From Afipia felis ATCC 53690 (GTDB taxonomy: Bacteria; Pseudomonadota; Alphaproteobacteria; Rhizobiales; Xanthobacteraceae), in assembly GCF_000314735.2 (NCBI RefSeq), contig NZ_KB375270.1:2356001-2420000 (forward strand): a stretch of 64,000 nucleotides of DNA, given 5' to 3'. Numbering within the stretch: position 1 is the stretch's first letter; each line of letters starts with the position of its first letter. Under the pieces are notes generated by a model that saw nothing but the letters and a program-made list of their open reading frames with translations, searched no databases and was not told the DNA's origin. Shown here one piece after another: positions 3,230 to 35,052 of this stretch. Both the position numbers and the translations under genes were made by a program.

Positions 3230-3243
3230 TTGATGGATGTCAA
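3230..3243. promoter_or_regulatory. FixK/FNR-like box
   Basis: TTGATGGATGTCAA matches TTGA-N6-TCAA exactly. It lies about 80 bases before the lipoyl-like gene on the plus strand and about 95 bases before the cytochrome c gene on the minus strand, so it could serve either. Confidence 0.6.
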
Positions 3244-3322
3244 GGTGAGCCCGGCCTTTCCGCGTATCAAAGTTATTGTTTACGAATCCACGATCCCGTT
3301 TCCCCTTGTTGGAGGACCAATC

Positions 3323-3565
3323 ATGACCGACCTGATCGTTCAGCCAGATCTCTGGATCACCAGAATGCTCCCTGAGGGAATCATCGAGAAGTGGCTTGTC
3401 GCCGATGGCGCGACCGTTGCTTCGGACGATCCTGTTGTCGATCTTCGGATCGAAAATCAACTTCGGAGATTGAAGTCACCTAGCCCCGGGCGGCTGACGA
3501 TCTACGCACGACCAAACAGCATTGTGGAACCCGGCACAGTGATAGGCAGGGTTGATGCCCCCTGA
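3323..3565 (+). CDS. Stand-alone biotinyl/lipoyl-like domain protein lacking the acceptor lysine
   Basis: An 80-residue protein with the beta-hammerhead layout of a biotinyl/lipoyl domain: WLVADGATVASDDPVVDL at about 23-40, then IENQLRRLKSPSPGRLT, then VEPGTVIGRVD at the C-terminus. In lipoyl domains the turn reads (E)TDKA with the modified lysine; here the equivalent is ENQL, so attachment of lipoate or biotin at the usual site seems impossible. ATG 3323 is chosen because GGAGGA lies seven bases upstream. It follows a FixK-like box and precedes the host-attachment family gene by 51 bases, perhaps as one transcript. Function unknown. Confidence 0.7.
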   Translation: MTDLIVQPDLWITRMLPEGIIEKWLVADGATVASDDPVVDLRIENQLRRLKSPSPGRLTIYARPNSIVEPGTVIGRVDAP

Positions 3566-3616
3566 GGTGCGGCAGGGCAGGATTTTGCCTGCTCACTCAC
3601 AGGAGGACCGCTTTCC

Positions 3617-4078
3617 ATGACCAAGCTCAAGCTGCGCCCCGCCTCGCTGGTCCTCGTGGCCGACGGCACCAAGGCGCTTTTTCTTCGCAATGCCGGGGAC
3701 GATGTCTATCCCAATCTCGTCGTCGCGCGCGCGTTCAAAGACGACAATCCCCCGACCAGAGACCAGGGAACCGATCGTCCCGGCCGTGTTCACGAGAGCG
3801 CCACCACGGGACGCAGCGCGCTGGAAACCACGGACTGGCATGTCGTCGAAGAACATCGGTTCGTCGAAACAACCGCAGCCTCTCTCAGCCGCTATGTTGA
3901 AAACGAGGGCGTCCGAAGCATTGTCATCATCGCACCGCCCCGTGTGATCGGCGACCTGCGTAAGGCTCTGCCTGAAACCATCCGGAAGCACATTCTTGCC
4001 GAAATCGAGAAAGATCTCACGAAACAACCGATTTATGAAATCGAAAAGTACCTTGCGGATTATCGCTCTGAAGCTTGA
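3617..4078 (+). CDS. Host attachment family protein (PF10116-like)
   Basis: A 153-residue protein similar to the 'protein required for attachment to host cells' family, which is widespread in alphaproteobacteria and related to release-factor/baeRF-like folds. Typical traits are the opening LVLVADGTKALFLRN, the middle TDRPGRVHES, and the C-terminal IVIIAPPRVIGDLRKAL followed by LTKQPIYEIEKYL. An AGGAGG ribosome binding site (3601-3606) is well placed. No signal peptide or membrane helix is seen. The family name comes from one Agrobacterium study; a true role in attachment is not shown here. Located between the lipoyl-like gene and the FixK-like box at 4275. Confidence 0.85.
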   Translation: MTKLKLRPASLVLVADGTKALFLRNAGDDVYPNLVVARAFKDDNPPTRDQGTDRPGRVHESATTGRSALETTDWHVVEEHRFVETTAASLSRYVENEGVRSIVIIAPPRVIGDLRKALPETIRKHILAEIEKDLTKQPIYEIEKYLADYRSEA

Positions 4079-4274
4079 GTTGAAGCTGGCCGAGATTGAC
4101 GGCCAGAGGTTCTTTCGATGACCAGTTAGCGCAGCAGTTTCTGCCCGCTGCGAACCAAAGCCCGCTAGAAATGCTTCCTGGCCACGTGAAAGAATTCTGC
4201 CGACTACTCGCCTTAGTTGATTTCGTTACAAAACTCGCAGGAACCATCCGCGCGAGCAGACAACCTTTATGCAA

Positions 4275-4288
4275 TTGAGCCAGATCAA
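4275..4288. promoter_or_regulatory. FixK/FNR-like box
   Basis: TTGAGCCAGATCAA matches TTGA-N6-TCAA. Its centre is about 57 bases before the HlyD-family start, the distance expected for a class II FNR/FixK promoter with a short leader. The remaining 259-base gap (4079-4337) holds no convincing gene. Confidence 0.65.
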
Positions 4289-4337
4289 GCACTTCAGGTG
4301 AGAAAGTGCGACTGAGGTTTCTGTGCGGAGTCCAAGC

Positions 4338-5447
4338 ATGGTTGTGGATCAAGAGAACTCCATTTCACAAGAACCCCAGACGTACAAAACCTCATCTGAG
4401 AGCGGGATCGTCGTCTCCCCCGACAATGCACACTTGCCCGTGGTTCAACTACGAGACAATCGAACATCCAGGCTGCGCTGGCTGCCTGCAGTCCTGCTGC
4501 TGCTCGGTGCTCTATCGGCTGGTGGAGCAGGATACTACTGGTGGGAACGGTTGCACCCGTCACTCCCGATTGGGATCAGTGACGGAAACGGCCGCATCGA
4601 AGCGGACGAAATTGATATCGCCACCAAATACGCAGGCAGAATCGCCGAATTAGGAACGGACATCGGCGACCTAGTGTCTCCCGGCCAGGTCGTCGCCAGA
4701 ATGGATACTCAGGATATCCAACAGTCCCTGTCAAAATCCGAAGCGACGGCGCGGCAAGCGCAGAAGGCGATCGACGAAGCACAAGCAAACCTTGTCCAGC
4801 AACAGACCCAGCAGAGGCTCGCAGAACAGGAGATCGAGCGAACGCGCACCTTGTTGAAGAGTGGCTGGGCAACAAAAGAATTGATGGACCAACGGCAACA
4901 ACAGCTTGATGGCGCCAATGCCGGCCTGACTGCCGCGAAAGCCAGGGTTCTTCAAACAGAGCATGCTCTCAGCGCAGCACAGCACGACGCCGCCTTTTAT
5001 AGAGTCCAGATCGCTGACAATGCCCTCGTCGCGCCCAAGAGAGGGCGAATCCAATACCGGCTTGCCAATATTGGTGAAGTTCTTCCCGCCGGAGGCAAGG
5101 TCTTCACCATGCTCGACTTCTCATATGTCTACATGGACATTTATCTGCCGACTGCGGAAGCAGGCAAGGTCAGGGTCGGCGACGATGCACGCATCGTTCT
5201 TGACGCCTACCCAGATCATCCCATTCCTGCGAAAGTCTCGTTCGTCGCGAACCTGTCTCAGTTCACACCGAAGACCGTGGAAACGAAAAGCGAGCGCGAC
5301 AAGCTGATGTTTCGAATCCGGGTGCGAATCGATCAGGATCGTTTGCTCGCACATAGCGATGCCATCAGAAGCGGCCTGCCAGGCGAGACCTATGTGCGCT
5401 GGGATCATTCAGTCGGTTGGCCCGCAAAGCTTGAGAGCACCCCATGA
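4338..5447 (+). CDS. HlyD-family membrane fusion (periplasmic adaptor) protein, YhiI-like
   Basis: Periplasmic adaptor of an ABC exporter, 369 residues. A cytoplasmic N-terminus of about 40 residues precedes one membrane helix (LPAVLLLLGALSAGGAGYYW). Then come a lipoyl-type half (DIGDLVSPGQVVARMD), a long alpha-helical hairpin rich in Q, A and E (about 125-225), the second lipoyl half and a beta-barrel domain. ATG 4338 is preferred to GTG 4323 because GGAG lies seven bases upstream. The gene overlaps the next ORF by four bases (ATGA), so it is in one operon with the RbbA-like ATPase and YhhJ-like permease, the same order as yhiI-rbbA-yhhJ in Escherichia coli. Expression is probably FixK/FNR-dependent through the box at 4275. 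Confidence 0.9.
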   Translation: MVVDQENSISQEPQTYKTSSESGIVVSPDNAHLPVVQLRDNRTSRLRWLPAVLLLLGALSAGGAGYYWWERLHPSLPIGISDGNGRIEADEIDIATKYAGRIAELGTDIGDLVSPGQVVARMDTQDIQQSLSKSEATARQAQKAIDEAQANLVQQQTQQRLAEQEIERTRTLLKSGWATKELMDQRQQQLDGANAGLTAAKARVLQTEHALSAAQHDAAFYRVQIADNALVAPKRGRIQYRLANIGEVLPAGGKVFTMLDFSYVYMDIYLPTAEAGKVRVGDDARIVLDAYPDHPIPAKVSFVANLSQFTPKTVETKSERDKLMFRIRVRIDQDRLLAHSDAIRSGLPGETYVRWDHSVGWPAKLESTP

Positions 5448-8206
5448 GCGGCTGTGATAGCCCGGCCGCTGTCGTTCGAGACCTCTCTCTCAACTACGGC
5501 CCGGTGACAGCTTTGGACGACATATCGGTCGATATTCCCGTGAGCCAACTTATTGGACTGATCGGCCCCGACGGCGTCGGGAAATCGTCGCTGCTCGCGA
5601 TCCTTGCTGGCGCGCGCAAAATCCAGAAGGGCTGCGCCACGGTCCTTGGCGTCGATATCTCAAACGCTTCTGCACGTGCTCAGGCCTGCCCCAAAATCGC
5701 ATACATGCCGCAAGGGCTCGGCAAGAACTTGTATCCCGACCTCAGCGTTCGTGAAAATATCGAGTTCTTTTCCAGATTGTTTGGCCAGCCCCGTCGGGAA
5801 CGCGAGTGGAGAATCAAAGAACTCCTGGAAAGCACCGGACTGACGCCTTTCGCGGACCGGCCCGCCAGCAAACTCTCCGGGGGAATGCGGCAGAAGCTCG
5901 GTCTGTGCTGTTCGCTTATTCACGATCCCGATCTTTTGATTCTCGACGAACCCACGACCGGCGTCGATCCGCTGTCACGCCGACAGTTCTGGGATCTTAT
6001 CGGCAGACTGCGTGCACGCCGACCGGAGATGAGCGTGGTCGTTGCAACGGCCTACATGGAAGAGGCTGAACATTTCGACTGGCTGATTGCCATGAACGAA
6101 GGACGAATCCTTGCTGCAGGCACGCCGTCCGACCTGAAACAAAAGACCCACACAGGATCTATCGAAGACGCCTTCGTTACATTGCTTCCGCAGCGGGGGC
6201 TCGCTTCCACCCAAAAAAGAAATGCTCACCCACTCGCCACGCCAACGGAACCCGTTATCGTCGCAAGAAACCTGACGTGCCGCTTCGGTAGTTTCACCGC
6301 CGTCGATCGGGTCAACTTCACGATCCTGCAAGGTGAAATCTTCGGTTTTGTCGGCTCGAACGGATCCGGCAAAACAACCACCATGAAGATGCTGACGGGC
6401 CTTCTGCCCCCCACCGAAGGCGAAGCATTGATCTTCGGAAAGCGGCTGGCAGCTGACACCATCGAATCTCGCCGCCGCGTCGGTTATATGTCGCAATCTT
6501 TTTCGCTTTATAGCGAATTGACGGTTCGGCAAAATCTCACATTGCATGCCAGGCTTTTCTATCTTCCGGAAAAGTTTGCGGAAGAGCGGATCGCCGAACT
6601 GGTCGAGAAATGCGATCTCACCGGCTACCTCGACAACCTCGCCTCCGAGCTGCCGCTTGGGATCAGACAGCGGCTATCACTCGCGGTTGCCATCGTTCAT
6701 AAGCCAGACCTTCTAATACTGGATGAGCCGACCTCCGGCGTGGATCCGGTGGCCCGCGATCAGTTCTGGGACTTGCTGATCCATTTATCGAAAAACGAAG
6801 GCATGACCATCCTCGTATCGACGCACTTCATGAACGAGGCCGAGCGTTGTGATCGACTGTCGCTGATGCACGAAGGGCGGGTGCTCGCCACCGACACGCC
6901 CGCTGGCTTGATCCGGGCCAAGAACGGCAACAATCTTGAGGAGGCTTTCATCAAATTCCTCGAGCAGGAGGATCCGAGCGAACAGACGAGATCCATCGAT
7001 ATTCCGTCGATGACATACGACCCGCCGCAAGCTACTGGCGCCACATCGGAACGAACAGGCCACCGAGACTGCCCCGCTATCTTTCTGAGCCTCCAGAGAT
7101 TGATCGCCTGTACCATTCGAGAGAGCCTCGAACTCATCCGCGATCCCATCCGCCTCATGTTCGCGCTGTTTGGCACGACACTTTTGATGGTCGTTTTTGG
7201 CCTTGGAATATCGACCGATGTCAACAATCTGACATTTGCCGTTCTCGATCGAGACCAGACTCCCGAGAGTCGCGCTTATCTCGAAGAACTCAGGGGATCG
7301 AGCTACTTCGTCGAGAAGGCCCCGCTTAAGGATTACGCAGACCTCGACCGGCGCTTGAAGGATGGAAGCATCGATGTCAGCATCGAAATTCCCCCGAATT
7401 TCGGATTGAACATCAAGCGAGACCGGCCGGTCTGGGTCTCTGCATGGATCGATGGAGCCATGCCTTTTCGAGCGGAAACCATCCGCGGCTATCTCCAGGG
7501 TATGCACCAGCTCTATCTGAGCGACCCCGCTATCAAGACAATGCAGCCTCCGAGCCCCTCCCCCGCCGATATCGAAGTCAGGTTCAAGTACAATCAGGAT
7601 TTTGACAGTATCTACGCGATGGTACCGTCGACGATTGCGATGCTGCTGGCGCTGTTTCCGGCCATCCTGATGGCCCTTGCCGTTGTGCGTGAGAAAGAAC
7701 TTGGCTCCATCACCAATCTGTACGTCACTCCGGTGACCCGGCTGGAATTCCTCGTCGGCAAGCAGTTGCCTTATGTCGCAGTCGCGATGATCAACTTTAC
7801 GGTCATGTTCATGATCGCCACATTGCTTTTCCGGGTACCCCTGAAGGGCAGTTTCCTAGCGCTGCTTGTCGGCACAATCATTTATGTCTTCACCACCACC
7901 GGCTACGGAATGTTGATCTCGACATTTTGCAGCAGCCAGATAGCGGCGCTGTTCGGAACGGCAATCCTGACCATCCTTCCAGCCCAGCAGTTCTCCGGCA
8001 TGATGACACCAGTATCCTCCCTGTCGGGAACGGCACAGGTGATCGGCCTGGCTTTTCCCATGACCTATTACCGGCCGATTAGTGTCGGGACGTTCACCAA
8101 GGGATTGGGATTCTCCGATCTCACCTCCAGCATCCTGCTTTTGGTACTGTTCATTCCGGCTCTGACGATGCTCAGCCTGTGGCTGCTTCCGAAGCAAGAA
8201 CGATGA
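5444..8206 (+). CDS. rbbA: RbbA-like ABC transporter: two ATPase domains fused to an ABC-2 permease
   Basis: A 920-residue fusion close in length to E. coli RbbA/YhiH. NBD1 (about 1-235) has Walker A GPDGVGKSS, signature LSGGM and Walker B LLILDEPTTGVD. NBD2 (about 270-500) has Walker A GSNGSGKTTT, Walker B LLILDEPTSGVD, but the signature is LPLGIRQRL instead of LSGGQ. The C-terminal third is an ABC-2 type membrane domain with one helix near 575, a large extracytoplasmic loop and about five helices to the end. The E. coli protein was reported as a ribosome-associated ATPase, yet the fused permease and the neighbouring HlyD and permease genes suggest an export system of unknown substrate. Confidence 0.92.
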   Translation: MSGCDSPAAVVRDLSLNYGPVTALDDISVDIPVSQLIGLIGPDGVGKSSLLAILAGARKIQKGCATVLGVDISNASARAQACPKIAYMPQGLGKNLYPDLSVRENIEFFSRLFGQPRREREWRIKELLESTGLTPFADRPASKLSGGMRQKLGLCCSLIHDPDLLILDEPTTGVDPLSRRQFWDLIGRLRARRPEMSVVVATAYMEEAEHFDWLIAMNEGRILAAGTPSDLKQKTHTGSIEDAFVTLLPQRGLASTQKRNAHPLATPTEPVIVARNLTCRFGSFTAVDRVNFTILQGEIFGFVGSNGSGKTTTMKMLTGLLPPTEGEALIFGKRLAADTIESRRRVGYMSQSFSLYSELTVRQNLTLHARLFYLPEKFAEERIAELVEKCDLTGYLDNLASELPLGIRQRLSLAVAIVHKPDLLILDEPTSGVDPVARDQFWDLLIHLSKNEGMTILVSTHFMNEAERCDRLSLMHEGRVLATDTPAGLIRAKNGNNLEEAFIKFLEQEDPSEQTRSIDIPSMTYDPPQATGATSERTGHRDCPAIFLSLQRLIACTIRESLELIRDPIRLMFALFGTTLLMVVFGLGISTDVNNLTFAVLDRDQTPESRAYLEELRGSSYFVEKAPLKDYADLDRRLKDGSIDVSIEIPPNFGLNIKRDRPVWVSAWIDGAMPFRAETIRGYLQGMHQLYLSDPAIKTMQPPSPSPADIEVRFKYNQDFDSIYAMVPSTIAMLLALFPAILMALAVVREKELGSITNLYVTPVTRLEFLVGKQLPYVAVAMINFTVMFMIATLLFRVPLKGSFLALLVGTIIYVFTTTGYGMLISTFCSSQIAALFGTAILTILPAQQFSGMMTPVSSLSGTAQVIGLAFPMTYYRPISVGTFTKGLGFSDLTSSILLLVLFIPALTMLSLWLLPKQER

Positions 8207-8213
8207 AAAGCCA

Positions 8214-9341
8214 ATGCGAAGCCTCTCCAACATATTTTGGCTTGGCACCAAGGAGTTGCGGAGCTTTTTCAGAGACTGGGTGTTACTTGCCTTTGTAGTC
8301 TATTCATTTTCACTAGCCATCATCAGTCAGGCACAAAGCAATTCTCAGGAGCTGTATCACGCATCGATCGCTGTGGTGGACGAAGACCACTCCGAACTAT
8401 CGCGGCGGATTACGCATGCGTTTCTCATGCCAAACTTCGAGCCACCTGCCCTGATCGCGGAAGCCGACATCGAACCTCTAATGAATGCAAGCCGGTATAC
8501 CTTCATCATTGATATTCCGCCAAACTTTCAGCGGGACGTTATTGCGGGGCATCGTCCTGCCATTCAGGTCAATGTCGATGCCACCGCCATGGTCCAAGCC
8601 GGACTCGGCTCCGGTTATACCCAGCAGATCATCAATACCGAGATTGCACAGTTTCTGTCGCGTAACGAAGGCACGCCGCTGTCGCCTGTCAATCTGGCTA
8701 TCAGGATCGCCTTCAATCCCAACGTAACGACCGCTTGGTTCACCGGTGTGATGAGCATCATCGGCAGCGTCAATATCCTGGCGATCATCCTTGCCGGCGC
8801 CGCCCTCGTCAGGGAACGGGAACACGGCACCATGGACCACCTCATGGTTATGCCGATCACCCCTTTCGAAATCGCGATGTCAAAGATCTGGGCGAACGGG
8901 CTTGTGATTGCTGTCGCCGTCGCTCTCGCAATCTATCTCGTGATTCGGCTGCTTCTGCAGATTCCGATTGCCGGCTCCATTCCGTTATTTTTGTTCGGCA
9001 CCATCCTATATCTGTTCTTCGCGACAGCGCTCGGCCTGTTTCTCGGCACCGTGGCTCGATCCATGCCGCAGCTTGGCTTGCTCTTTATGCTTGTGGCAAC
9101 TCCGATGAATATCCTCTCAGGCAGCGCAACCCCGCTGGAGAGTATGCCGCCTTGGCTTGCGACCATTATGCAGGCATCTCCCTCGACACATTTCGTTGCT
9201 CTTGCTCAGGCGATTCTCTACCGGGGTGCAGGATTGGACATCGTCTGGCCAGAGTTCTTGGCAATCAGCAGCATCGGCGTTCTGTTTGTATGGCTGGTAC
9301 TCGTGCGCTTCCGATCCGCCATCGGTTCCGCATCGTCTTAG
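8214..9341 (+). CDS. ABC-2 type transporter permease, YhhJ-like
   Basis: A 375-residue inner-membrane permease with an N-terminal helix (about 22-42), a large extracytoplasmic domain (45-170), and five C-terminal helices. A conserved ALVREREHGTMDHLMVMPITPFEI segment marks the ABC-2 family. It begins 7 bases after the RbbA-like stop and pairs with that protein's own membrane domain to form a heterodimeric pore, with the HlyD-family protein as adaptor. No outer-membrane factor is encoded next to it. Confidence 0.9.
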   Translation: MRSLSNIFWLGTKELRSFFRDWVLLAFVVYSFSLAIISQAQSNSQELYHASIAVVDEDHSELSRRITHAFLMPNFEPPALIAEADIEPLMNASRYTFIIDIPPNFQRDVIAGHRPAIQVNVDATAMVQAGLGSGYTQQIINTEIAQFLSRNEGTPLSPVNLAIRIAFNPNVTTAWFTGVMSIIGSVNILAIILAGAALVREREHGTMDHLMVMPITPFEIAMSKIWANGLVIAVAVALAIYLVIRLLLQIPIAGSIPLFLFGTILYLFFATALGLFLGTVARSMPQLGLLFMLVATPMNILSGSATPLESMPPWLATIMQASPSTHFVALAQAILYRGAGLDIVWPEFLAISSIGVLFVWLVLVRFRSAIGSASS

Positions 9342-9357
9342 CTCCGCCATCTGTTGT

Positions 9358-9371
9358 TTGACCTATGGCAA
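9358..9371. promoter_or_regulatory. Possible FixK/FNR-like box (imperfect)
   Basis: TTGACCTATGGCAA fits the relaxed FixK pattern TTGA-N6-GCAA but not the strict palindrome. It lies about 67 bases before the P-type ATPase start, the same spacing as the better boxes nearby. Weak on its own. Confidence 0.35.
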
Positions 9372-9431
9372 AAAGCCAATACAGGCGGCTGCTAGAAAGG
9401 GCGATGATCGATACCAGCAAATGATGGCGCT

Positions 9432-11768
9432 ATGGCAGGCAATCTGGCGGTGATCAGCCCTCCTCAAAAGGATATTGGCCTGTCGACACAAGAGGCAAAC
9501 CGCCGCCTCCAGACCTTTGGGCCCAACTCCGCGATTGATGTCGAGGAAAGCACCTGGCGCCTGTTGTGGGCCAAGTTTCTTGCGCCCATTCCCTGCCTGT
9601 TGGAAGCCGCGATCATCCTTCAGATCATTCTCGGCGAGTACATCGAAGCCTCCCTGATCGCCGTATTGCTGATCTTCAACGCAACGCTCGGCTTCTTTCA
9701 GGAGAGCCGCGCCCGAGCGACGCTGGAAGCCTTGAGAAAACGACTGGCGCTCAAAACGACGGCGCTTCGCGACGGAGCATGGACGATCCTGCCCGCAGAG
9801 AAGCTCGTACCCGGCGATATCGTTAAACTATCTCTGGGAAGCGTCGTGGCAGCCGATGTCCGCCTGAAATCCGGCTCCGTCCTGCTCGATCAGTCGATGC
9901 TCACCGGAGAATCCCTCCCCGTCGAAGCGGGGGCCGGCCATGATACTTACGCTGGCGCCCTGATCCGGCGTGGCGAAGCCGTCGCCGAGGTCACTGCGAC
10001 TGGTCATGCCACAAAATTCGGGAAAACCGCCGAACTCGTGCGCACGGCTCACAATGCGAGTTCCCAGCAGCAGGCCATCTTTCGAGTCGTCCTTTATCTC
10101 GCAATAACCAATGGCATATTTGCGATTGCCCTGATCGGATATTCGATTTTCCTCAAACTCCCCGTCGAGGAGATTCTACCGCTGGGTTTAATTGCAGTGC
10201 TGGCTTCTGTGCCAGTCGCTCTGCCCGCTACCTTCACGCTTGCTGCGGCGAACAGTGCCCAGAAACTTGCGAAAACAGGCGTACTGCCGACACGGCTTTC
10301 CGCCGTCGATGAAGCAGCTACCATGAACGTGTTGTGCGTCGACAAGACCGGCACTCTGACTCAGAACGAGCTTGCGATCGCAAAGGTTGTGCCGTTCGAT
10401 GGATACGATGAAAACAGCATTCTTGGATTGGCGCTGCTCGCCAGCTCCGACGGCGGATTGGACCCCATCGACGCCGCCGTGCGCGAGGCTGCCAGGCAGG
10501 CTCCCGTCGATCTGAGACTTGTGCGATTCACGCCGTTCGATCCCGGCACCAAGATCGCGCAAGCGATGGTGCTGGACTCATCCGGAATACAAAGGACAAT
10601 CATCAAAGGCGCTTTTGCTTATGTAGCAAAAGACAGTGTTTGCGCGCCGCTCGCCACCCGCAAGGCCGCCGAGTTGGAAAATCAAGGCCTGAGAGTCCTT
10701 GGCGTCGCCGAAGGATCTGCCGGGAAAATGCGTCTTGTGGGGTTGCTCGCACTCAGCGATCCGCCGCGACCAGAAGCGCATGATTGCGTCAGGACCCTGC
10801 AGCGGATGGGCATCCATGTCGTGATGGTGACCGGAGACGCGCCCGAGACTGCTGCAACAGTTGCACGAGCCGTCGGCCTCGAAGGAAAAGTCTTCACGGG
10901 AAAAACGATACCGGATCGGATAGACCCAAAAGATTTCACGGTTTTTGCCGGTTGCCTCCCGGAAGACAAGTTCACTCTTGTCAAAGCATTTCAATCGGCC
11001 GGCCATATCGTAGGAATGTGCGGCGACGGCGCAAATGATGCGCCGGCGCTGCGGCAAGCGCAGTTCGGCATCGCCGTATCCACCTCAACGGACGTTGCCA
11101 AATCTGCCGCCGGGATTGTTCTAACAGAACCGGGGTTGTCCGGAATCGTCAGCGCCGTCACCGAGGGACGTATCGCGTTCCAGCGTATTCTTACCTACAC
11201 ATTGCGCTCGATTCTGCACAAGGTTCGGCAGGTTCCCTATCTCGGAATTGGACTGTTCATGACGGGACACGCCATTCTGACGCCGATGCTCGTAGTGATT
11301 TCGATGATCACCGGCGATTTTCTGGCGATGTCATCCACCACTGACAACGTCGTTCCTTCGCCCAGACCAAATACGTGGAAAATCGGCGATCTGACCCTGA
11401 TGGGAATCATGATGGGAGCATTCGATCTGCTCTTTTGTGTCCTCGTTCTGTGGATCGGTCATGCACGGCTGCATCTGCCGATCGAGACGATGCAGACATT
11501 GACTCTTGTCAATCTGGTGGTGAGCGGCCAGGCAATTTACTATGTCGTCAGAGAGCGGCGCCACCTCTGGTCCTCGCGCCCGAGCAAAATCGTCGTCACC
11601 TGTTCAATCATCGATCTTGCGCTGGTACCATCGCTTGCTATGACCGGAACATTAATGGCACCCCTGCCTGTTCCGATCATCGCCGGATTATTCGGAGTTG
11701 CTGCCATCTTCGCCTTCGTGCTCGATGGCGTGAAAACACTCCTTCTGCATTATCTGACGATAGATTGA
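9432..11768 (+). CDS. Plasma-membrane H+-ATPase-type P-type ATPase (P3A-like)
   Basis: A 778-residue ion-pumping ATPase. Key motifs are TGES (158-161), the PVALPATF membrane motif (about 261-268), the phosphorylation site DKTGTLT (Asp304) and the hinge GDGANDAPAL near residue 527. The short N-terminus, the GLSTQEANRRLQTFGPN opening and the PxxLPA motif match proton-efflux (Pma1-type) P3A ATPases rather than metal or calcium pumps. It could export protons when respiration is limited. The ATG has no strong Shine-Dalgarno. It stands between the ABC export operon and the BON gene and is probably in the same low-oxygen regulon. Confidence 0.9.
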   Translation: MAGNLAVISPPQKDIGLSTQEANRRLQTFGPNSAIDVEESTWRLLWAKFLAPIPCLLEAAIILQIILGEYIEASLIAVLLIFNATLGFFQESRARATLEALRKRLALKTTALRDGAWTILPAEKLVPGDIVKLSLGSVVAADVRLKSGSVLLDQSMLTGESLPVEAGAGHDTYAGALIRRGEAVAEVTATGHATKFGKTAELVRTAHNASSQQQAIFRVVLYLAITNGIFAIALIGYSIFLKLPVEEILPLGLIAVLASVPVALPATFTLAAANSAQKLAKTGVLPTRLSAVDEAATMNVLCVDKTGTLTQNELAIAKVVPFDGYDENSILGLALLASSDGGLDPIDAAVREAARQAPVDLRLVRFTPFDPGTKIAQAMVLDSSGIQRTIIKGAFAYVAKDSVCAPLATRKAAELENQGLRVLGVAEGSAGKMRLVGLLALSDPPRPEAHDCVRTLQRMGIHVVMVTGDAPETAATVARAVGLEGKVFTGKTIPDRIDPKDFTVFAGCLPEDKFTLVKAFQSAGHIVGMCGDGANDAPALRQAQFGIAVSTSTDVAKSAAGIVLTEPGLSGIVSAVTEGRIAFQRILTYTLRSILHKVRQVPYLGIGLFMTGHAILTPMLVVISMITGDFLAMSSTTDNVVPSPRPNTWKIGDLTLMGIMMGAFDLLFCVLVLWIGHARLHLPIETMQTLTLVNLVVSGQAIYYVVRERRHLWSSRPSKIVVTCSIIDLALVPSLAMTGTLMAPLPVPIIAGLFGVAAIFAFVLDGVKTLLLHYLTID

Positions 11769-11867
11769 CAAAGCATGCGATCTCGCAGGCGTGCCTGCAT
11801 CTCGCATTTTGGCTAAGTCGCCTCTTTCAGTCGTTCCCGTATTGCCGAAAATACAAGTTTACTGGCC

Positions 11868-11881
11868 TTGAGATGGATCAA
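11868..11881. promoter_or_regulatory. FixK/FNR-like box
   Basis: TTGAGATGGATCAA matches TTGA-N6-TCAA. The centre is about 64 bases before the BON-protein start. Confidence 0.6.
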
Positions 11882-11938
11882 ACGAGGCGTCTTGCAGCAG
11901 GCTTTAATTCACTTCGCTATCACGAAGGAGTTCCAGTC

Positions 11939-12589: not shown

Positions 12590-12597
12590 TGGAGCTC

Positions 12598-26316: not shown

Positions 26317-26330
26317 TTGACACAGGTCAA
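26317..26330. promoter_or_regulatory. FixK/FNR-like box between divergent genes
   Basis: TTGACACAGGTCAA matches TTGA-N6-TCAA with a TTGAC/GTCAA dyad. It is about 65 bases before the EF-hand gene and about 147 before the metallo-hydrolase. Confidence 0.6.
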
Positions 26331-27521: not shown

Positions 27522-27553
27522 ATGTTGACGCGCAACCGCACTCGTGTCATTTC

Positions 27554-27668: not shown

Positions 27669-28364
27669 ATGCGCGCCCTTCACAAAGAAACCCATCTGAT
27701 CGAACGTATCGGATGGCTTCGAGCGGCGGTGCTGGGCGCTAACGACGGACTGATTTCGACATCCAGCCTCATCGTGGGTGTGGCAGCCGCAACCCCGGCT
27801 TCTCACGAGATTCTTGTGGCAGGTGTCGCGGGGCTGGTCGCCGGCGCAATGTCGATGGCAGCAGGAGAATATGTCTCGGTCAGCTCCCAGGCCGACACTG
27901 AAAAAGCGGATATGGCGCGTGAACAGCACGAACTGGCCACTCAGCCAGAGGCTGAACTAGCTGAACTCGCCGCGATCTATGAACAACGCGGCTTGTCGGC
28001 CGATCTGGCTCGTCAGGTTGCTGAGCAGATGATGGCAAAGGATGCATTTGAGGCGCATGCGCGTGACGAACTTGGCCTGACGAGCCATGTGATGGCGAGA
28101 CCCGTCCAGGCGGCCTTCACGTCCGCAGTGACGTTCTCTATAGGTGCCGCTCTGCCACTGATCGTTGCTTTGCTCGCGCCGCCGAGAACGACAACCTGGA
28201 CTGTATCCATCACTTGCTTGATCGGACTTGCTGTTCTTGGAGCAATCGGCGCTCGCACAGGCGGCGCCAGCATATGGAAGCCGACTGCGAGGGTGGTGTT
28301 CTGGGGTGCAGTTGCTCTGGCGTCGACGGCCATCATTGGTTTCCTTGTTGGGCGGGCAGTCTGA
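27669..28364 (+). CDS. VIT1/CCC1 family iron/manganese transporter
   Basis: A 231-residue inner-membrane protein. Helices at about 18-60 carry GANDGLISTSSLIVGVAAA and GLVAGAMSMAAGEYVSVSSQ; these are followed by a cytoplasmic helical loop with acidic residues (about 75-135) that is the metal-binding part in the family, and by three C-terminal helices. It has no ferritin-like domain, unlike MbfA. It probably exports Fe2+ or Mn2+. Two Irr-like boxes precede it, fitting repression when iron is low. It ends 2 bases before the P1B ATPase ATG, so both are in one operon. Confidence 0.9.
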   Translation: MRALHKETHLIERIGWLRAAVLGANDGLISTSSLIVGVAAATPASHEILVAGVAGLVAGAMSMAAGEYVSVSSQADTEKADMAREQHELATQPEAELAELAAIYEQRGLSADLARQVAEQMMAKDAFEAHARDELGLTSHVMARPVQAAFTSAVTFSIGAALPLIVALLAPPRTTTWTVSITCLIGLAVLGAIGARTGGASIWKPTARVVFWGAVALASTAIIGFLVGRAV

Positions 28365-28366
28365 AC

Positions 28367-30343
28367 ATGAAGCGCGTGTCGTTCGACTTGCCGACCTTTA
28401 TGTCGTTGTTGGCCGCCCTGGGCATGATCCTCGCCATGGCCGGGAGCTGGTTGCCGGGCGAAGGACTTGCCATTCTTCGGTGGCCTGGGCTGGTACTCGT
28501 CTATCTCGCGGGTGGGCTTCCTGCTCTGTGGAGCGCGGTGTCGGCGCTTTGGCGAGATCACATCCTCGATATCGATCTCCTGATGGTGGTTGCCGCTATT
28601 GCTGCCGCCATCGTGGGTGCGCCGTTCGAAGGCGCTGTGCTGCTGACACTCTTCAGCGTATCGACCACGCTTGAACATCAAGCGCTCGGGCGTGCGCGTC
28701 GCGCAGTCGAAGCTCTGATGGCGCTTCGCCCCGAAACGGCGTTTCGCAAGAACAAGGACGGCACAGTTGTGGAGGTCCCCGCCGCCGAGCTTACGGTCGG
28801 CGATGTCGTGATTTTGCGCCCTGGCGCTCGCGTGCCGACCGACGGCGTAATCATCCAAGGCCGGGGCGGTGTCGACGAAGCGAACATCACAGGCGAATCC
28901 ATGCCTGTTTCCAAGGAACTAGGACAACAGGTGTTCGAAGCCACCGTGAATCTCGATGGGGTTTTGGAAGTTGCCGTCACCAGGACAATCGGCGACAGCA
29001 CGATCGCGCGCATGATTAAGCTTGTAACGCAAGCTCAGGAGGCAAAAGCCCCGTCTGAGCGATTCAGTTCCTGGTTTGGACAGCGCTACACCATTGCAGT
29101 CATCCTGGGTGCGCTGCTCGCCTTTGCCGCGTTTTACTCGCTTGGCCGTGACTGGGAGCAGGCTCTCTACAAGGCCGCAACGCTGCTCGTTGCCGCTAGC
29201 CCCTGCGCAATCGTCATATCGGTGCCAGCCGCGATCCTGTCGGCCCTTTCAGCGGCCGCACGAGGCGGTGTGTTGTTCAAGGGAGGCAGTGCGCTTGAAA
29301 CACTGGCCGCCGTCGATACCTTCGCCTTTGACAAGACCGGCACACTCACCAATGGCCGTGCAGTGGTAACGCGGATTATTGCTCTGGATGGAGATGAACG
29401 GCGCTTTCTGTCACTTCTGGCCGGGCTCGAAGCCCATTCCGAGCATCATATCGCGACAGCCATCCGTCGGGAGGCTGCGGTACGCGACATCGCGCCGGCG
29501 AATGTTATCGATGTCAGCTCCCGCCCGAGCGCAGGCATCGTCGGCTCGGATGAGCTTGGCCCGCTATGGGCGGGCAACCCCCGCCTTGTGAGGGATATGG
29601 GCGGATCCGCTGATCGCGCTGAGTTTCGGGAATTGGCCGACAGCACGCAAACCGTTGTCTATCTGGGGCGCGGATCGACTGTCCTGGGAGCCGTCAGTGT
29701 GGCGGATGAGGCAAGAATCAGCTCCGCCCCGGCGCTCGCCGCCCTGCGGGATGGCGGTGTCCGCCGCATCGTCATGATGACAGGCGACCGCAGGCCGGTG
29801 GCTCTACGGATCGGGGCGGAGCTTGGCCTCACTTCCGACGAAGTCCATGCCGAGATGCTCCCGGAGGACAAAGTCCGTCGCGTGGGCGAACTGGCGGGGC
29901 ATGGCAAGGTCGCCTTCGTTGGCGACGGCGTGAATGACGCTGCGGCACTGGCACGCGCTGACGTCGGCATCGCCATGGGCGCGGCCGGCTCGGATGTTGC
30001 TCTTCAGGCAGCCGACGTCGCGTTGTTGTCGGAAGACATGAAGAAACTGGCTGATGCGCACGGTCTGGCTCGCCGCACAGCTGCGATCATTCGGCAGAAT
30101 CTCACTGTTGCGATCGGCGCCATGCTGGTGCTCGTGACAGGCGGCCTATTTTTCGATCTGCCGCTTCCGATGGCGGTAATCGGACACGAGGGCGGGACCG
30201 TGCTGGTTGTCCTGAACGGGTTGCGGCTCCTGTCGGATAGGATTCGGCGAAACACGAACGAAATTTCATCGACACGCCAGACGTGGAGCGACCGAAGCGC
30301 ATCGACGCTCCCGTCGAAAACGTTTTCCGCCAAAATATCGTAA
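28367..30343 (+). CDS. Heavy-metal P1B-4-type ATPase (probable Fe2+/Co2+ exporter)
   Basis: A 658-residue metal-exporting P-type ATPase. It shows TGES (175-178), an SPC membrane motif (278-280) in place of CPC, DKTGTLT with phosphorylated Asp322, a GDGVNDAAAL hinge, and HEGGT (His607) in the last helices. SPC with HEGGT and no N-terminal metal-binding domain is the P1B-4 signature; characterised members export Co2+ or Fe2+. ATG 28367 is chosen because it follows the VIT-family stop directly. Placement behind Irr-like boxes and an iron transporter gene favours Fe2+ export. Confidence 0.9.
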   Translation: MKRVSFDLPTFMSLLAALGMILAMAGSWLPGEGLAILRWPGLVLVYLAGGLPALWSAVSALWRDHILDIDLLMVVAAIAAAIVGAPFEGAVLLTLFSVSTTLEHQALGRARRAVEALMALRPETAFRKNKDGTVVEVPAAELTVGDVVILRPGARVPTDGVIIQGRGGVDEANITGESMPVSKELGQQVFEATVNLDGVLEVAVTRTIGDSTIARMIKLVTQAQEAKAPSERFSSWFGQRYTIAVILGALLAFAAFYSLGRDWEQALYKAATLLVAASPCAIVISVPAAILSALSAAARGGVLFKGGSALETLAAVDTFAFDKTGTLTNGRAVVTRIIALDGDERRFLSLLAGLEAHSEHHIATAIRREAAVRDIAPANVIDVSSRPSAGIVGSDELGPLWAGNPRLVRDMGGSADRAEFRELADSTQTVVYLGRGSTVLGAVSVADEARISSAPALAALRDGGVRRIVMMTGDRRPVALRIGAELGLTSDEVHAEMLPEDKVRRVGELAGHGKVAFVGDGVNDAAALARADVGIAMGAAGSDVALQAADVALLSEDMKKLADAHGLARRTAAIIRQNLTVAIGAMLVLVTGGLFFDLPLPMAVIGHEGGTVLVVLNGLRLLSDRIRRNTNEISSTRQTWSDRSASTLPSKTFSAKIS

Positions 30344-30453
30344 CGGCAAAGCTGACCCGAGTCCCTGGGCCATTTCCGCAAATGAGGTCAATTAAATTGA
30401 AGCGATGCCATCGCGCCTGCAGTGACACCGATCACGCTGACAAGGGTCAATCT

Positions 30454-31728
30454 ATGCCCACGTGGCTTTCGATTATCATTTCCACGGCTGCACTCGCTCT
30501 GGCTGCGCCGGCCCATGCCCAGCCACCGAAGCCCGTATCAATCGATGCGCTCGCCAACATCGTTGTATCGAGCAATCCCGAGCGGCGGTTTTATGTACAG
30601 CAGATCGGTCTCGCGGGTGTCGAACGCGACGCCGCGAATCGGCTGCCAGATCCCGAAATAGCATTTGAGCTCGGACAACGTCGAACGTCCGATGTCCTGA
30701 CCGGCATGCCGACGGGTGATGGGCCTACATACGGCGTGTCCCTCATGCAGCCACTTGATTTCGCCGGCCGGGGCGCTCTGCGTCGGGCTATTGCCGAACA
30801 TCAAGTGGCATTGGCGCGCATCGGTCTTGCGCAATTCGATGCTACATTGGTCAGCCGGGCGCATTCGCTCGGCTACTCGCTATTTGCAGCGGAACAGAAG
30901 GCAATCGCGGCACGCGACGTCGCGACGCGGATGCGAGCGCTCGCGGAAGTGGTGGCGCAACGTGAAGCGGCTGGCCCTGCACCTGCGCTGGATGCGGCGA
31001 TCCTGGAGGCCGGCGCTATCACCGCCGAACGCAACGCCGCCACTGCCGAGGCTGAAGCCCACGCCAGCCTCTATGAGTTGAACCAGCTGCGGGGAGCACC
31101 TCTTGGCGTAAGCATTCGCGTCGCTCGCCCTGATATTCGGCTTGTCGCGCTTCCAGCCGTGGGCCGCATGACGCGAGAGGTGGATGCCAACAATTTTGAG
31201 CTTCAGTCCCTGCGCACACAAACACGACAGCAGGGACTGCGTGTTGACATGGCGGAAAAATCGCGCGTGCCGAACGTGGCGGTCGGCCCTTATTATAATC
31301 ACGCAAAATCTGACATTCGCGAGACCAATTTCGGTGTCCGGCTGACGACATCGCTGCCGCTTTGGAACAGCCAGGCGGCGGGCGTAGCGCAAGAGCAGAG
31401 CCGCCAGTCCGAAGCTAACGTCGCATTGCTCGCGGCCCAGCGAAGGATAGCACGACAAGTTTACGAGCGTGCCGCACTTTACGAGACCAAGCGCCGGGCG
31501 CTGGCGAACTGGCCTATATCCTCCGCGGACAAGCTCGCGGCCACAGCAGCTGCTGCCGACAATCTTTTCCGGCAGGGTGCGATCCCAACCGCAACCTATG
31601 CGGAAATGCAACGCCAATATCTCGACGCTTTATCGGCCGTGCTGGATACGAGGCGCGAAGCCTTGGAGGCCTCACTTCAACTCCGTGCGCTTAACGGGGG
31701 GCGCCGCTTCGGCGGCATGAGCCAATGA
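30454..31728 (+). CDS. CzcC-like outer-membrane efflux protein (TolC family)
   Basis: A 424-residue outer-membrane factor. The signal peptide MPTWLSIIISTAALALAAPAHA is followed by alternating helical and strand segments typical of the OEP family. ATG 30454 starts the signal peptide and has AAGGGT seven bases before it; the ORF is open upstream to 30283 but overlaps the ATPase gene end. It overlaps the RND gene by four bases, so the two are co-translated. It would form the exit duct for the RND pump. Confidence 0.88.
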   Translation: MPTWLSIIISTAALALAAPAHAQPPKPVSIDALANIVVSSNPERRFYVQQIGLAGVERDAANRLPDPEIAFELGQRRTSDVLTGMPTGDGPTYGVSLMQPLDFAGRGALRRAIAEHQVALARIGLAQFDATLVSRAHSLGYSLFAAEQKAIAARDVATRMRALAEVVAQREAAGPAPALDAAILEAGAITAERNAATAEAEAHASLYELNQLRGAPLGVSIRVARPDIRLVALPAVGRMTREVDANNFELQSLRTQTRQQGLRVDMAEKSRVPNVAVGPYYNHAKSDIRETNFGVRLTTSLPLWNSQAAGVAQEQSRQSEANVALLAAQRRIARQVYERAALYETKRRALANWPISSADKLAATAAAADNLFRQGAIPTATYAEMQRQYLDALSAVLDTRREALEASLQLRALNGGRRFGGMSQ

Positions 31729-34700
31729 TGCGCCAACTGCTTCATTGGGTAAGCAGCCGCCCGGCTGCTATAGGCGCAATGGCTCTCCTGGTCGCGGCCT
31801 TCGGAGTTTGGTCATTCCTGCAGCTTGAGGTTGACGCCATCCCCGACATCACCGGGGTGCAGGTGCAAATCAACACGACTGTGCCGGCATTTGCGCCGGA
31901 GGAAATCGAGCGTCTCGTAACCTTGCCGATCGAGCGGGCAATGGCCGGCCAGCCGGGCCTTCGCGACATGCGATCGCTGACCAAGACTGGGTTGTCACAG
32001 GTTACCCTGCTTTACGAAGATGGCACCGATCAGCTTCGTTCACGCCAGCTTGTCACCGAAAGATTAGCAACGGTCCGTGACATGCTCCCTGCTGGATCCA
32101 CGTCACAGCTTGCGCCGATCACCACGGGACTTGGTGAGATCTGGTATTATACGCTCGAATGGGTACAGCCTCCGGCTAGACTAGACGAACAGCAGCAATT
32201 GATGGAGCTGTACGAGGCTCAGGAGTACATCGTCAAGCCGATGCTCCGCGCGACCCCGGGCGTAGCAGAGGTGAACTCCAACGGCGGCCTCGAACGGCAG
32301 TTTGTCGTTGAGCCCGACCTTAGCCGACTAACGGCGGCGGGCGTCACGCCTACCGAGCTTGCCCTGGCTGTAGGTGCCAACGTGGAGAATGCCGGCGGCG
32401 GAACAATTACCGCAAATGGTCAGCGCTTCACCTTGCGGACTGAGGCACGGGTCACAACCGTGGACATGATCCGTGCGCTGCCTGTCAAATTTGCTGGAAG
32501 CGTCCGGCCCCTCACAGTTGGCGACTTGGCTACCGTAACAATCGGTCATGCCTTGCGTGAAGGTGCAGCAACCGCCAACGGCAAAGAGACCGTTCTCGGC
32601 ACGGTGATGATGCTCGTGGGCCAAAACAGCAGGGATGTTGCCAAACGCGTCGATGCACGATTGCCGGATCTGCGCGCGGCGCTGCCGAAGGGTATGGCCC
32701 TGCGCGTCCAGTATGACCGCTCCGAATTGGTGGATCGCACCGTCGCGACGGTCGAACGCAACCTTGGCGAAGGCGCGTTACTGGTTGCCGTGGTGTTGTT
32801 GGTCGTGCTCGGCAATTGGCGAGCGGCGATGATCGTCGCTCTCGTTATTCCGCTCGCATTTCTGATGATGATTACGGGCATGAACGTGCTTGGCGTTTCC
32901 GGCAATCTGATGAGCCTGGGAGCACTCGATTTCGGTCTCATCGTCGATGGCGCGATCGTGGTTGTTGAAAATGCCATGCGCCTGATGAGTCAAGCCAGCG
33001 CGGAAAAGAAGCGAGAGCTAACAGCGCGCGAACGCCGTACGATTGTTGTTGAGGCGACAAGTGGCGTGGCGCGCCCTGTCTTTTTCGGCGTTGCCATCAT
33101 CACCCTTGTCTACGTGCCAGTGCTCAGCCTGGGCGGCGTGGAAGGCAAGCTGTTTCACCCCATGGCACAGGCTGTGATGCTCGCGCTGGGCGCTGCCCTG
33201 TTCGTCACCTTCACTCTGGTTCCGGCACTGTGCGCCTGGATGTTGCGTTCCAACATGAAGGCTCGCCAACACTCTGGCGGCGAAAATGGCGCCGCGGCCC
33301 GCACCAGTCACGATATCGGGCATAGCAGCGGCCTTTCTGGCTTTATCGCGCGCGGCTATGTCCCCCTCCTGAACTTTGCGCTCCGCCACCCTGCAGCATC
33401 GGTTTGCCTGGCAGTCTGCTTGGTGGGCGGATCGATTGCCGTTTTCCTGACGCTCGGCTCACAGTTCACCCCGCGCCTCGATGAGGGCTCCATCACGGCG
33501 ATGGTTTACAAGCCAGTCGGAATGTCGCTCGACCGGAGTCTCGTGATCGAGCAAGAAACAGAGCGGGAAATTTTGCGACGCTTCCCACAGGTCACACGCA
33601 CATTCTCGCGGATCGGCACCAGCGCAGTTGCGACCGATCCGATGCCGCCCAACGAGAACGACCTGTACATCTTCTACAAGCCGCTGGACCAATGGCCGCA
33701 AGGCGACGGCATGCCCCGCAACAAGGCCGAACTGGTCTCAGCCATTGAAAAAACAATAACGGCGGTTTTCCCCGAACAATCCTTTCTGTTCGCACAACCC
33801 ATTGAGATGCGTTTCAACGAAATGCTGGAAGGTACGCGCGCTGATCTTTCGGTGAAAATATTCGGGAACGATTACGATATGCTTGAGAAGCTTGCCGCGC
33901 AGGCACGAGAGGAACTGCAGACCCTGCCCGGCACCGCCAATGTGCAATTTGAAACCGCCGACCGCACGCGCAGCCGAGTTGTCGACATCGATCACGAGGC
34001 GATGGTCCGCCTAGGACTTGGCGCCATGGAGGTGAACCGTGCCGTGACCTCGGCTATTGCCGGTGATGAGATCGGCTTCATCACCGAGGGCGATCATCGA
34101 CATTCCATTGTCGTTCGCCTGCCCGAAATGCTCCGTGCTGACAACAAGTCGCTCCTCTCACTTCCGCTACGCGTCGGCACCACCGGTCTAGTATCGCTCG
34201 ATCGGGTTGCTACTGTACGCGACACGCGAACGGTCGAACCAATCTTGCATGACAACGCCAAGCGTCGCGCGGCGTTGATGGTGAACCTCAACACTAATGA
34301 TATCGAAGGCTATGTTACTGCGGCGAGAGCGCGGCTTGCCGACAAGCTGAAACTACCGGAGTCCTACCGCATTGAATTCGGCGGCCAGTTTCGCCAGTTG
34401 GAGGCCGCACGCAGCCGCTTGATGATTGTTGTACCTGCAGCACTGCTGCTGATCTTTGCATTGGTTTATTCTGCGGTCGGCAGCATACGCCAGGCAGCAG
34501 TCATCTATACAGGGATTCCGTTTGCGATCACCGGTGGCGTGTTAGCTCTATGGTTGCTCAACATGCCTTTTTCGATCACCGCTGCGATTGGATTCATAGC
34601 ATTGTCCGGTATTGCGATGCTGAACGGTCTGGTGTTGGTCGATCATATCAATAGCTTGCGAAAAATTCTGCCGCTCGCAGATGCTGTACGACAAGCCGCT

Positions 34701-35006
34701 ATGGACCGATTGCGTCCGGTGCTATCAACAGCCATGGTCGCTGGTATCGGCTTCATGCCTATGGCAATCGCCCAGGGCGCAGGGGCGGAAGTACAACGGC
34801 CGCTCGCCACCGTAGTCATCGGAGGGATTATATCCTCGACTGTACTGACGCTGCTGTTGCTTCCAACGATCTATCGCTGGGTAGAGCGGCGCTCCGCAGG
34901 TCACAACAGAGAAAAAAATCTTTCACCCAAAGATTTCGGTCAATTGTCAGCGCAGAAAACGAGCCTCTCCAACGGGTCATCTGAAGAGTCTACGTATTCC
35001 GCGTGA
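31725..35006 (+). CDS. CzcA-like heavy-metal RND efflux pump
   Basis: A 1093-residue inner-membrane RND transporter of the HME group. Features are the N-terminal helix with DAIPDITGVQVQI, the helix 4 motif DFGLIVDGAIVVVEN with two acidic residues, twelve helices in the two halves, and two large periplasmic loops. The helix 4 motif marks a metal rather than drug pump; which divalent metal is not clear. No CzcB-like adaptor gene occurs between czcC-like and czcA-like or nearby, so the pump must borrow one or work differently. Probably transcribed with the VIT and P1B genes, although 110 bases separate it from them. Confidence 0.9.
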   Translation: MMRQLLHWVSSRPAAIGAMALLVAAFGVWSFLQLEVDAIPDITGVQVQINTTVPAFAPEEIERLVTLPIERAMAGQPGLRDMRSLTKTGLSQVTLLYEDGTDQLRSRQLVTERLATVRDMLPAGSTSQLAPITTGLGEIWYYTLEWVQPPARLDEQQQLMELYEAQEYIVKPMLRATPGVAEVNSNGGLERQFVVEPDLSRLTAAGVTPTELALAVGANVENAGGGTITANGQRFTLRTEARVTTVDMIRALPVKFAGSVRPLTVGDLATVTIGHALREGAATANGKETVLGTVMMLVGQNSRDVAKRVDARLPDLRAALPKGMALRVQYDRSELVDRTVATVERNLGEGALLVAVVLLVVLGNWRAAMIVALVIPLAFLMMITGMNVLGVSGNLMSLGALDFGLIVDGAIVVVENAMRLMSQASAEKKRELTARERRTIVVEATSGVARPVFFGVAIITLVYVPVLSLGGVEGKLFHPMAQAVMLALGAALFVTFTLVPALCAWMLRSNMKARQHSGGENGAAARTSHDIGHSSGLSGFIARGYVPLLNFALRHPAASVCLAVCLVGGSIAVFLTLGSQFTPRLDEGSITAMVYKPVGMSLDRSLVIEQETEREILRRFPQVTRTFSRIGTSAVATDPMPPNENDLYIFYKPLDQWPQGDGMPRNKAELVSAIEKTITAVFPEQSFLFAQPIEMRFNEMLEGTRADLSVKIFGNDYDMLEKLAAQAREELQTLPGTANVQFETADRTRSRVVDIDHEAMVRLGLGAMEVNRAVTSAIAGDEIGFITEGDHRHSIVVRLPEMLRADNKSLLSLPLRVGTTGLVSLDRVATVRDTRTVEPILHDNAKRRAALMVNLNTNDIEGYVTAARARLADKLKLPESYRIEFGGQFRQLEAARSRLMIVVPAALLLIFALVYSAVGSIRQAAVIYTGIPFAITGGVLALWLLNMPFSITAAIGFIALSGIAMLNGLVLVDHINSLRKILPLADAVRQAAMDRLRPVLSTAMVAGIGFMPMAIAQGAGAEVQRPLATVVIGGIISSTVLTLLLLPTIYRWVERRSAGHNREKNLSPKDFGQLSAQKTSLSNGSSEESTYSA

Positions 35007-35038
35007 AGAATGCGCTGCGAATGTTCGGACAGAGACGA

Positions 35039-35052
35039 CTGATCTGCATCAA
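35039..35052. promoter_or_regulatory. FixK/FNR-like box, one mismatch
   Basis: CTGATCTGCATCAA differs from TTGA-N6-TCAA only in its first base. The centre is about 68 bases before the cytochrome b561 start. Confidence 0.5.

Follow-up and report, generated by a model that had tools for sequence, protein, structure and literature searches.

The DNA analysed here, called the window, is a stretch of 64,000 nucleotides (nt) of Afipia felis ATCC 53690 that spans genome positions 2356001 to 2420000 of contig NZ_KB375270.1; window coordinates count from its first letter. Its left part carries genes for exporters, P-type ATPases, redox enzymes, a phosphorylase and stress proteins, interspersed with copies of the palindrome TTGA-N6-TCAA, a box of the CRP/FNR type (Table 1). 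Judged from sequence analysis, these boxes very likely serve as FixK-type promoter sites for a low-oxygen programme that is borne as cargo on an island of about 75 kb at a tRNA-Thr gene.

Nine exact boxes were found in the window (3230, 4275, 11499, 11868, 19903, 20205, 22900, 23791 and 26317), compared with 0.97 expected from 100 dinucleotide shuffles (standard deviation 1.02, maximum 4). An earlier sequence-only reading had listed seven of them together with four one-mismatch boxes (9358, 14396, 25768 and 35039) and had expected about one exact match at most by chance in 32 kb; all were present where it placed them. Two exact sites were missing from its list: 11499 falls within the P-type ATPase gene and 20205 within the nitroreductase gene. 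When one mismatch was allowed, the window contained 38 sites including the nine exact ones versus 22.75 expected, which is far less special than the exact count. The whole genome holds 68 exact sites, versus 26 for the pattern letters read backwards. Of these, 54 were listed with their positions, none of them beyond 2,929,382 of contig 1, and no further exact box was found in the stretches available below 2.93 Mb; three of the remaining 14 were located (one intergenic, two in-gene). Seventeen of the 54 listed boxes fall within 2342032-2382330 (about 40 kb), eight of them left of the window. These 17, including 15 of the 33 listed intergenic exact boxes, sit on less than 2% of the genome.

The region was delimited as a block of 42.3 kb, from 14.9 kb left of the window through window position 27400. 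Fifteen of its 17 exact boxes are intergenic, while intergenic DNA makes up 11.3% of the block (P value, 7e-13), and 14 of these 15 stand 58-78 nt upstream of a start (background 12.5%). Since the block borders were drawn once the boxes were seen, enrichment P values are descriptive. Gene starts were taken from a home-made caller, with starts or extents changed by hand at 3323, 16013, 23850 and 25695 and genes added by hand at 2807-3211 and 20868-21470; with the caller's own start for the stress protein, 13 of the 15 boxes fall within 58-78 nt. Of the 37 listed exact sites beyond the island, 18 lie between genes; for a control palindrome (26 sites in the genome) this holds for 5 of the 15 sites whose loci were examined. 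A matrix was then used that was built solely from 26 published FixK2-associated boxes of Bradyrhizobium diazoefficiens (PMC9104804 Table 2). In the block it found 19 intergenic and 2 in-gene sites scoring at least 11 bits, corresponding to 3.96 and 0.053 per kb; the sequence-only reading had named equal motif density in coding DNA as its refutation, and these densities do not refute it. The near-matches at 9358, 14396 and 25768 score 12.0-17.1 bits and that at 35039 scores 15.0 bits. The sequence-only reading's observation of boxes in gaps upstream of genes was upheld, and the signal is stronger than it had claimed.

The box cluster does not begin at 3230, as previously read, and starts 14 kb left of the window. 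That left stretch (L028) had most of its genes family-scanned, the first ABC/MlaD gene excepted. It encodes, in order, a universal stress protein (USP) and PhaC with two boxes between their genes, a 128-aa unknown, a cation P-type ATPase, a 157-aa unknown, a phosphoketolase, a FixK-type regulator, acetate kinase, an 87-aa unknown, a CBS-BON protein, a zinc alcohol dehydrogenase, Hsp20, a 131-aa unknown and an ABC/MlaD system running into the window. Three open reading frames (ORFs) of 128-157 aa in this stretch (L028:4019-4405, L028:7060-7533 and L028:15159-15554) each have an exact box 64-77 nt upstream, and no Pfam match was found for any of the three. At the other end, the metal genes at 27.7-35.0 kb have no intergenic matrix site of 8.5 bits or more, both of their sites at this threshold being in-gene, and by its gene families this segment looks like metal efflux rather than a member of the regulon. 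To its right, intergenic sites of at least 8.5 bits are the box at 35039, preceding a cytochrome b561 gene at 35114, and one at 36958 (12.8 bits, 22 nt before a 60-aa ORF). The span 3230..35052, which had been taken as one programme, falls short on the left and reaches too far on the right.

A relative, G007, carries the same block, and 13 of the 15 intergenic exact boxes align; no aligned counterpart was found there for boxes 19903 and 22900. In the aligned boxes, 104 of 104 core positions are unchanged, compared with 63 of 78 in the spacer and 514 of 722 in the flanks (Fisher, 1e-6 versus spacer and 1e-14 versus flanks). The region upstream of the archaeal-type phosphorylase gene was compared more widely, and a box of at least 12 bits was found in 60 of 78 loci versus 0 of 78 in-gene controls. 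Eighty loci were named, of which 78 had enough upstream DNA; the search covered about 220 nt from the protein match and not from a called start, and the 78 loci are non-independent, many coming from Bradyrhizobium and some from one metagenome-assembled genome. The commonest form, ATGATCTGGGTCAA (26 loci), is the one printed for FixK2-dependent bll3117 (PMC9104804). Dense clustering is not general, with a median of one exact box in 61 full-length loci and five or more in 11. At genome 925514-928150 (L032:514-3150), outside the island, the box TTGATGTGGGTCAA stands 59 nt upstream of a small DUF5676-like gene (below cut-off) and just downstream of a phosphoribosyl-pyrophosphate-synthetase-like gene and a second archaeal-type phosphorylase gene, whose product shares 41% identity with the island phosphorylase.

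In the genome, eleven proteins were found to carry a cyclic-nucleotide-binding domain. Two of them resemble FixK, and PDB 4i2o (FixK2) is the best match for each. The first is encoded inside the box cluster (E value, 1e-96). The other belongs to the core genome and lies beside genes for a PAS-PAS histidine kinase, a FixJ-type regulator and a lone receiver (fixL-fixJ-receiver-fixK, L037, 1.93 Mb), with a box upstream of the receiver gene. The core cbb3 oxidase gene ccoN (2216538-2217893) has an exact box at 2218186, 102 nt upstream of its called start, and a second ccoN-like gene was found at 3960178. Oxidation of Cys183 inactivates FixK2, as described in a part of PMC9104804. At the aligned position the island FixK has Cys and the FixLJ-linked FixK has Ser. 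A fixed redox-cysteine split between core and island was rejected, as the closest relatives of the island FixK in G007 and G020 have Ser. In the FixLJ-linked clade all four members (G000, G002, G003 and G007) have Ser, and other parts of the tree show Cys, Ser, Thr, Arg and Pro; because the residue varies among relatives, no firm conclusion was drawn from it.

The left border of the island was traced to a tRNA-Thr gene (genome 2325965-2326039), 80 bases after which a tyrosine integrase gene starts (L027:6120-7655, PF20172 and PF00589). A 28-bp repeat consisting of the last 25 bases of the tRNA plus 3 is present in exact copies at 2326015 (in the tRNA), at 2332791 and at the right border (Table 1), dividing the island of about 75 kb into a 6.8-kb integrase module and a 68.2-kb regulon module. 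GC is 0.51-0.60 over most of the island, with exceptions inside, versus 0.60-0.65 outside. In 10 of 28 congeners, the 20 kb around tRNA-Thr were examined, and the cargo module was unmatched in all ten. The right flank was found in nine of them, 0.07-8.2 kb from the tRNA, and matched from the very border in two (G003 and G007) and from at least 2.9 kb beyond it in seven. The border repeats, the integrase and the cargo-free tRNA-Thr of the ten examined congeners together indicate an insertion of about 75 kb, with the box cluster as its cargo.

Table 1. Boxes and genes of the window, with positions counted from its first letter.
Feature	Position	Strand	Details
Small cytochrome c	2807-3211	-	PF00034, E 9e-7; start 32 nt from box 3230
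Exact box TTGATGGATGTCAA	3230-3243	.	Between cytochrome c (-) and small + ORF 3323-3565; core 8/8 kept in G007
Host-attachment / baeRF family 12 protein	3617-4078	+	PF18856, PF10116; family of FixK2-dependent bll4645 (PMC9104804)
Exact box TTGAGCCAGATCAA	4275-4288	+	63 nt upstream of HlyD start; matrix score 20.4
HlyD adaptor, RbbA-type double ABC ATPase/permease, ABC-2 permease	4338-9341	+	Read as one operon; NF033858 RbbA, 1447.9 bits
One-mismatch box TTGACCTATGGCAA	9358-9371	+	74 nt upstream of ATPase start; letters kept in G007
P-type ATPase, proton-efflux-like	9432-11768	+	TIGR01647, 588.4 bits, under cut-off 615.5; contains exact site 11499
Exact box	11868-11881	+	71 nt upstream of BON-protein start
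BON-domain protein, three BON stretches	11939-12589	+	PF04972, scanned as longer ORF 11375-12589
Ion channel with cyclic-nucleotide-binding domain	13020-14378	-	PF00520 and PF00027
One-mismatch box TTGATCTAGATCAT	14396-14409	+	67 nt upstream of phosphorylase
Archaeal-type thymidine/AMP phosphorylase	14463-16016	+	NF003338, 674.9 bits; family of FixK2-dependent bll3117
Beta-CASP metallo-hydrolase, RNase-like	16013-17605	+	PF10996, PF07521; overlaps phosphorylase end
Isoaspartyl methyltransferase - erythromycin-esterase-domain fusion	17716-19737	-	PF01135 and PF05139, scanned from 19851
Exact box	19903-19916	.	Between fusion gene and nitroreductase (62 nt)
Nitroreductase	19965-20522	+	PF00881, scanned from 19839; family of FixK2-dependent blr4652; contains exact site 20205
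Exact box TTGATCTGCGTCAA	22900-22913	+	Letters equal to bsl7992 box; 76 nt upstream of start
CBS-CBS-BON protein	22976-23662	+	PF00571, PF04972
Exact box	23791-23804	+	59 nt upstream of hand-set GTG start; 98 nt to caller's start
Universal stress protein	23850-24734	+	PF00582
Cytochrome b561	25066-25695	-	PF01292; box 25768 (GTGATCGGGATCAA) 86 nt upstream of start
EF-hand protein	25851-26258	-	PF13202 and others, scanned from 26333; 72 nt from box 26317
Exact box	26317-26330	.	Between EF-hand (-) and metallo-beta-lactamase (MBL)-fold (+) genes
MBL-fold hydrolase	26471-27358	+	Best NCBIfam Blh-type sulfur dioxygenase, 378 bits, below cut-off 625; 154 nt from box 26317
Metal segment: VIT family, Zn/Cd-type P-ATPase, outer-membrane efflux protein, CzcA-type RND (resistance-nodulation-division) pump	27669-35006	+	
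One-mismatch box CTGATCTGCATCAA	35039-35052	+	75 nt upstream of cytochrome b561 at 35114
Right border repeat, 28-bp exact copy of tRNA-Thr 3' end	45014-45041	+	

In G007 the block sits elsewhere; the flanks of that site correspond to 3.416 and 3.407 Mb of the A. felis genome, where the block is missing. It is also reordered there, as window 4272-11775, -14861 to -11593, 11842-12927, -11582 to 4153, and 13020 onwards. Breakpoints 4272 and 11842 lie 3 and 26 nt before a box, which means that at these two points the box moved along with its gene; the other breakpoints are not at boxes. A search for target-site repeats around the G007 copy found no direct-orientation 18-mer shared between its left border (7 kb) and the 99.5 kb rightward of it. 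A plasmid origin was rejected, as a plasmid search with window 3000-27500 returned five records, each covering at most 2% of the query.

Other genes were recorded on the island. Two resolvase genes near both of its ends (L027:10137-10814 and window 39667-40344) are 89% identical to each other, and no match to either was found in the G007 region. A chromate resistance pair, chrB-chrA, is located at window 37500-39481 (PF09828 and PF02417). At the right end, a 774-aa AAA_13 ATPase (window 42497-44821) matched the PADLOC candidate defence family PDC-S06 (E value, 8e-139), and the integrase module contains an AbiJ-like gene (L027:10897-11643; E value, 7e-20). Within the P-type ATPase gene at 9432, the 14-mers 10971-10984 and 11499-11512 are 528 bases apart and differ by one base. 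The combination of beta-CASP protein, AMP-type phosphorylase, phosphoketolase and acetate kinase is suggestive of an archaeal-style pentose bisphosphate pathway. PF01008, which we take to be the family holding ribose-1,5-bisphosphate isomerase, was unmatched in the genome and matched in 9 of 14 control genomes; a nucleotide-to-acetate route was dropped for lack of this match.

If the boxes were chance palindromes in A+T-richer DNA, the A+T richness of the block relative to its flanks and the number of one-mismatch sites expected by chance would fit. The dinucleotide shuffles, however, gave 0.97 versus the 9 exact boxes of the window, seven control palindromes of the same shape occur 0-1 times each in the block versus 17 exact boxes, and the intergenic placement, spacing and conservation of the boxes speak against it as well; this explanation has a negligible probability, and for the exact intergenic boxes taken together a chance origin is already refuted. 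A different question is which regulator the boxes serve. The FNR consensus is the symmetric TTGAT-N4-ATCAA, and the full symmetric form, with both inner T and A, is found in 3 of the 15 intergenic exact boxes. At 3.6736 Mb the genome encodes an FNR-like protein whose N-terminus bears a cluster of cysteines, and at 3.661 Mb another CRP/FNR-family protein, so the boxes could mainly serve an iron-sulfur type FNR-like or other CRP/FNR regulator from this region rather than FixK. FixK and FnrN sites share one consensus and are very similar anyway (part of PMC4999443), and with an FNR-like protein in the same genome the acting protein can only be inferred. A fixK gene, however, lies inside the box cluster, the FNR-like gene is 1.3 Mb away and adjoins an NnrS-like ORF (named by eye), and same-named units of B. 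diazoefficiens drop 5- to 112-fold in a fixK2 mutant (PMC9104804 Table 2), making the alternative improbable. The low-oxygen FixK/FNR regulon proposed in the sequence-only reading is supported in part: the boxes are of the CRP/FNR type and kept in G007, the gene families match FixK2 units, and the regulator is probably FixK rather than classical FNR.

The status of the block as cargo is less settled. The block could be an old core-genome cluster that merely lies beside an island, as it diverges from G007 like the core (pieces 79-89% identical and one 74%, compared with 79-88% for flank pieces and 83-86% for long ones), and the third repeat copy at 2332791 separates the integrase from the cargo. 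On the other side, the 28-bp repeats bracket the block on both sides, the G007 block occupies a site from which it is missing here while the G007 tRNA-Thr lacks it, and the phosphorylase was found at 65% identity or more in just 3 of 28 other congeners; we regard the core-cluster explanation as rather unlikely. Several further points weigh against a cargo low-oxygen regulon as such. Island composition is uneven, with core-like GC at 2335-2340 kb; no conjugation genes were found among the island genes scanned, which were part of the island ORFs; the like divergence of block and core does not support recent transfer; no exact box stands upstream of the island fixK, phosphoketolase or ackA genes; and two of the 17 exact block boxes are in-gene, of which 11499-11512 keeps its core in G007. 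The like divergence from G007 is easier to reconcile with a long-held block that has since moved, or with an old transfer, than with a recent gain. That the island is mainly a metal-resistance element, with low oxygen incidental, would accord with its Zn/Cd-type ATPase, CzcA-type pump, ChrB and ChrA; the boxed genes, however, belong to FixK families and no intergenic site of at least 8.5 bits precedes the metal genes, and this explanation is very improbable.

In the low-oxygen programme proposed for the island, falling oxygen would activate FixL-FixJ, encoded in the core genome at 1.93 Mb, and thereby raise FixK. FixK from the core, the island or both would bind TTGA-N6-TCAA about 60-75 nt before start codons, so that the box would be centred near promoter position -40, and would turn on ABC (ATP-binding cassette) export, ATP-driven ion pumps, polyhydroxybutyrate polymerase, a chaperone, stress proteins, redox enzymes and nucleotide salvage. 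The low-oxygen setting is thereby predicted to extend to poorly known genes, namely those for the RbbA-type exporter, the BON and CBS-BON proteins and the EF-hand protein. A more speculative and rather doubtful extension is that the island is a portable programme, a transferable element with ready-made FixK boxes and its own FixK, which has Cys at the position of B. diazoefficiens Cys183, next to a host FixLJ-linked FixK having Ser there. If so, any FixLJ host that acquired the island would obtain a second tier of targets, and this strain would hold an oxidation-sensitive activator beside an oxidation-insensitive one. As the same block is found elsewhere and reordered in a relative, it is testable whether such an oxygen-response tier can come and go as a single unit. 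For fixLJK itself, horizontal transfer to Caulobacterales is reported in a part of PMC4999443.

The closest known system is the FixLJ-FixK2 regulon of B. diazoefficiens, which uses the same box at overlapping spacing (PMC9104804 and part of PMC6515984). Families common by name with its FixK2 units are phosphoketolase, acetate kinase, phosphorylase, MBL hydrolase, host-attachment protein, nitroreductase, USP, Hsp20, PhaC, CBS protein and HlyD-ABC exporter. These matches were made by protein family and product name, with the phosphorylase alone backed by upstream conservation. Nitroreductase, isoaspartyl methyltransferase, CBS and host-attachment proteins are microoxia-induced in B. diazoefficiens, according to part of PMC6515984. 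Its phosphoketolase-kinase unit has a box with a deviation (PMC9104804), whereas phosphoketolase and acetate kinase lack an exact box here. A comparative genomic study of the Bradyrhizobiaceae FixK regulon (PMC2908626) has Hsp20, HlyD, ABC permease, phosphoketolase, CBS protein, cytochrome c and zinc alcohol dehydrogenase in common; it lists orthologue sets, and no island is mentioned in the parts consulted. The low-oxygen-activated (lxa) locus of Burkholderia cenocepacia is a hypoxia-linked locus with a crystallin that is likened to the Mycobacterium tuberculosis DosR dormancy regulon, with which USPs and alpha-crystallin are in common here (part of PMC6127331). This Burkholderia locus belongs to another bacterial class and is likened here by description only. 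The DosR regulon also includes a P-type ATPase, nitroreductase, CBS protein and erythromycin-esterase-domain protein, and DosR is a response regulator of another family, making it a look-alike and not a relative by regulation. No FixK-regulon island in Afipia or Bradyrhizobium was found among the papers listed by the literature searches, at the level of titles and abstract openings, and PMC12366326 had no bearing on it. The box and the gene kinds are known from the soybean rhizobia of the genus Bradyrhizobium, where, judged by locus numbers, the B. diazoefficiens units are scattered over several chromosomal places; the less usual aspect, which the sequence-only reading had missed, is that here they are packed into 42 kb of a tRNA-bounded island that also encodes a FixK.

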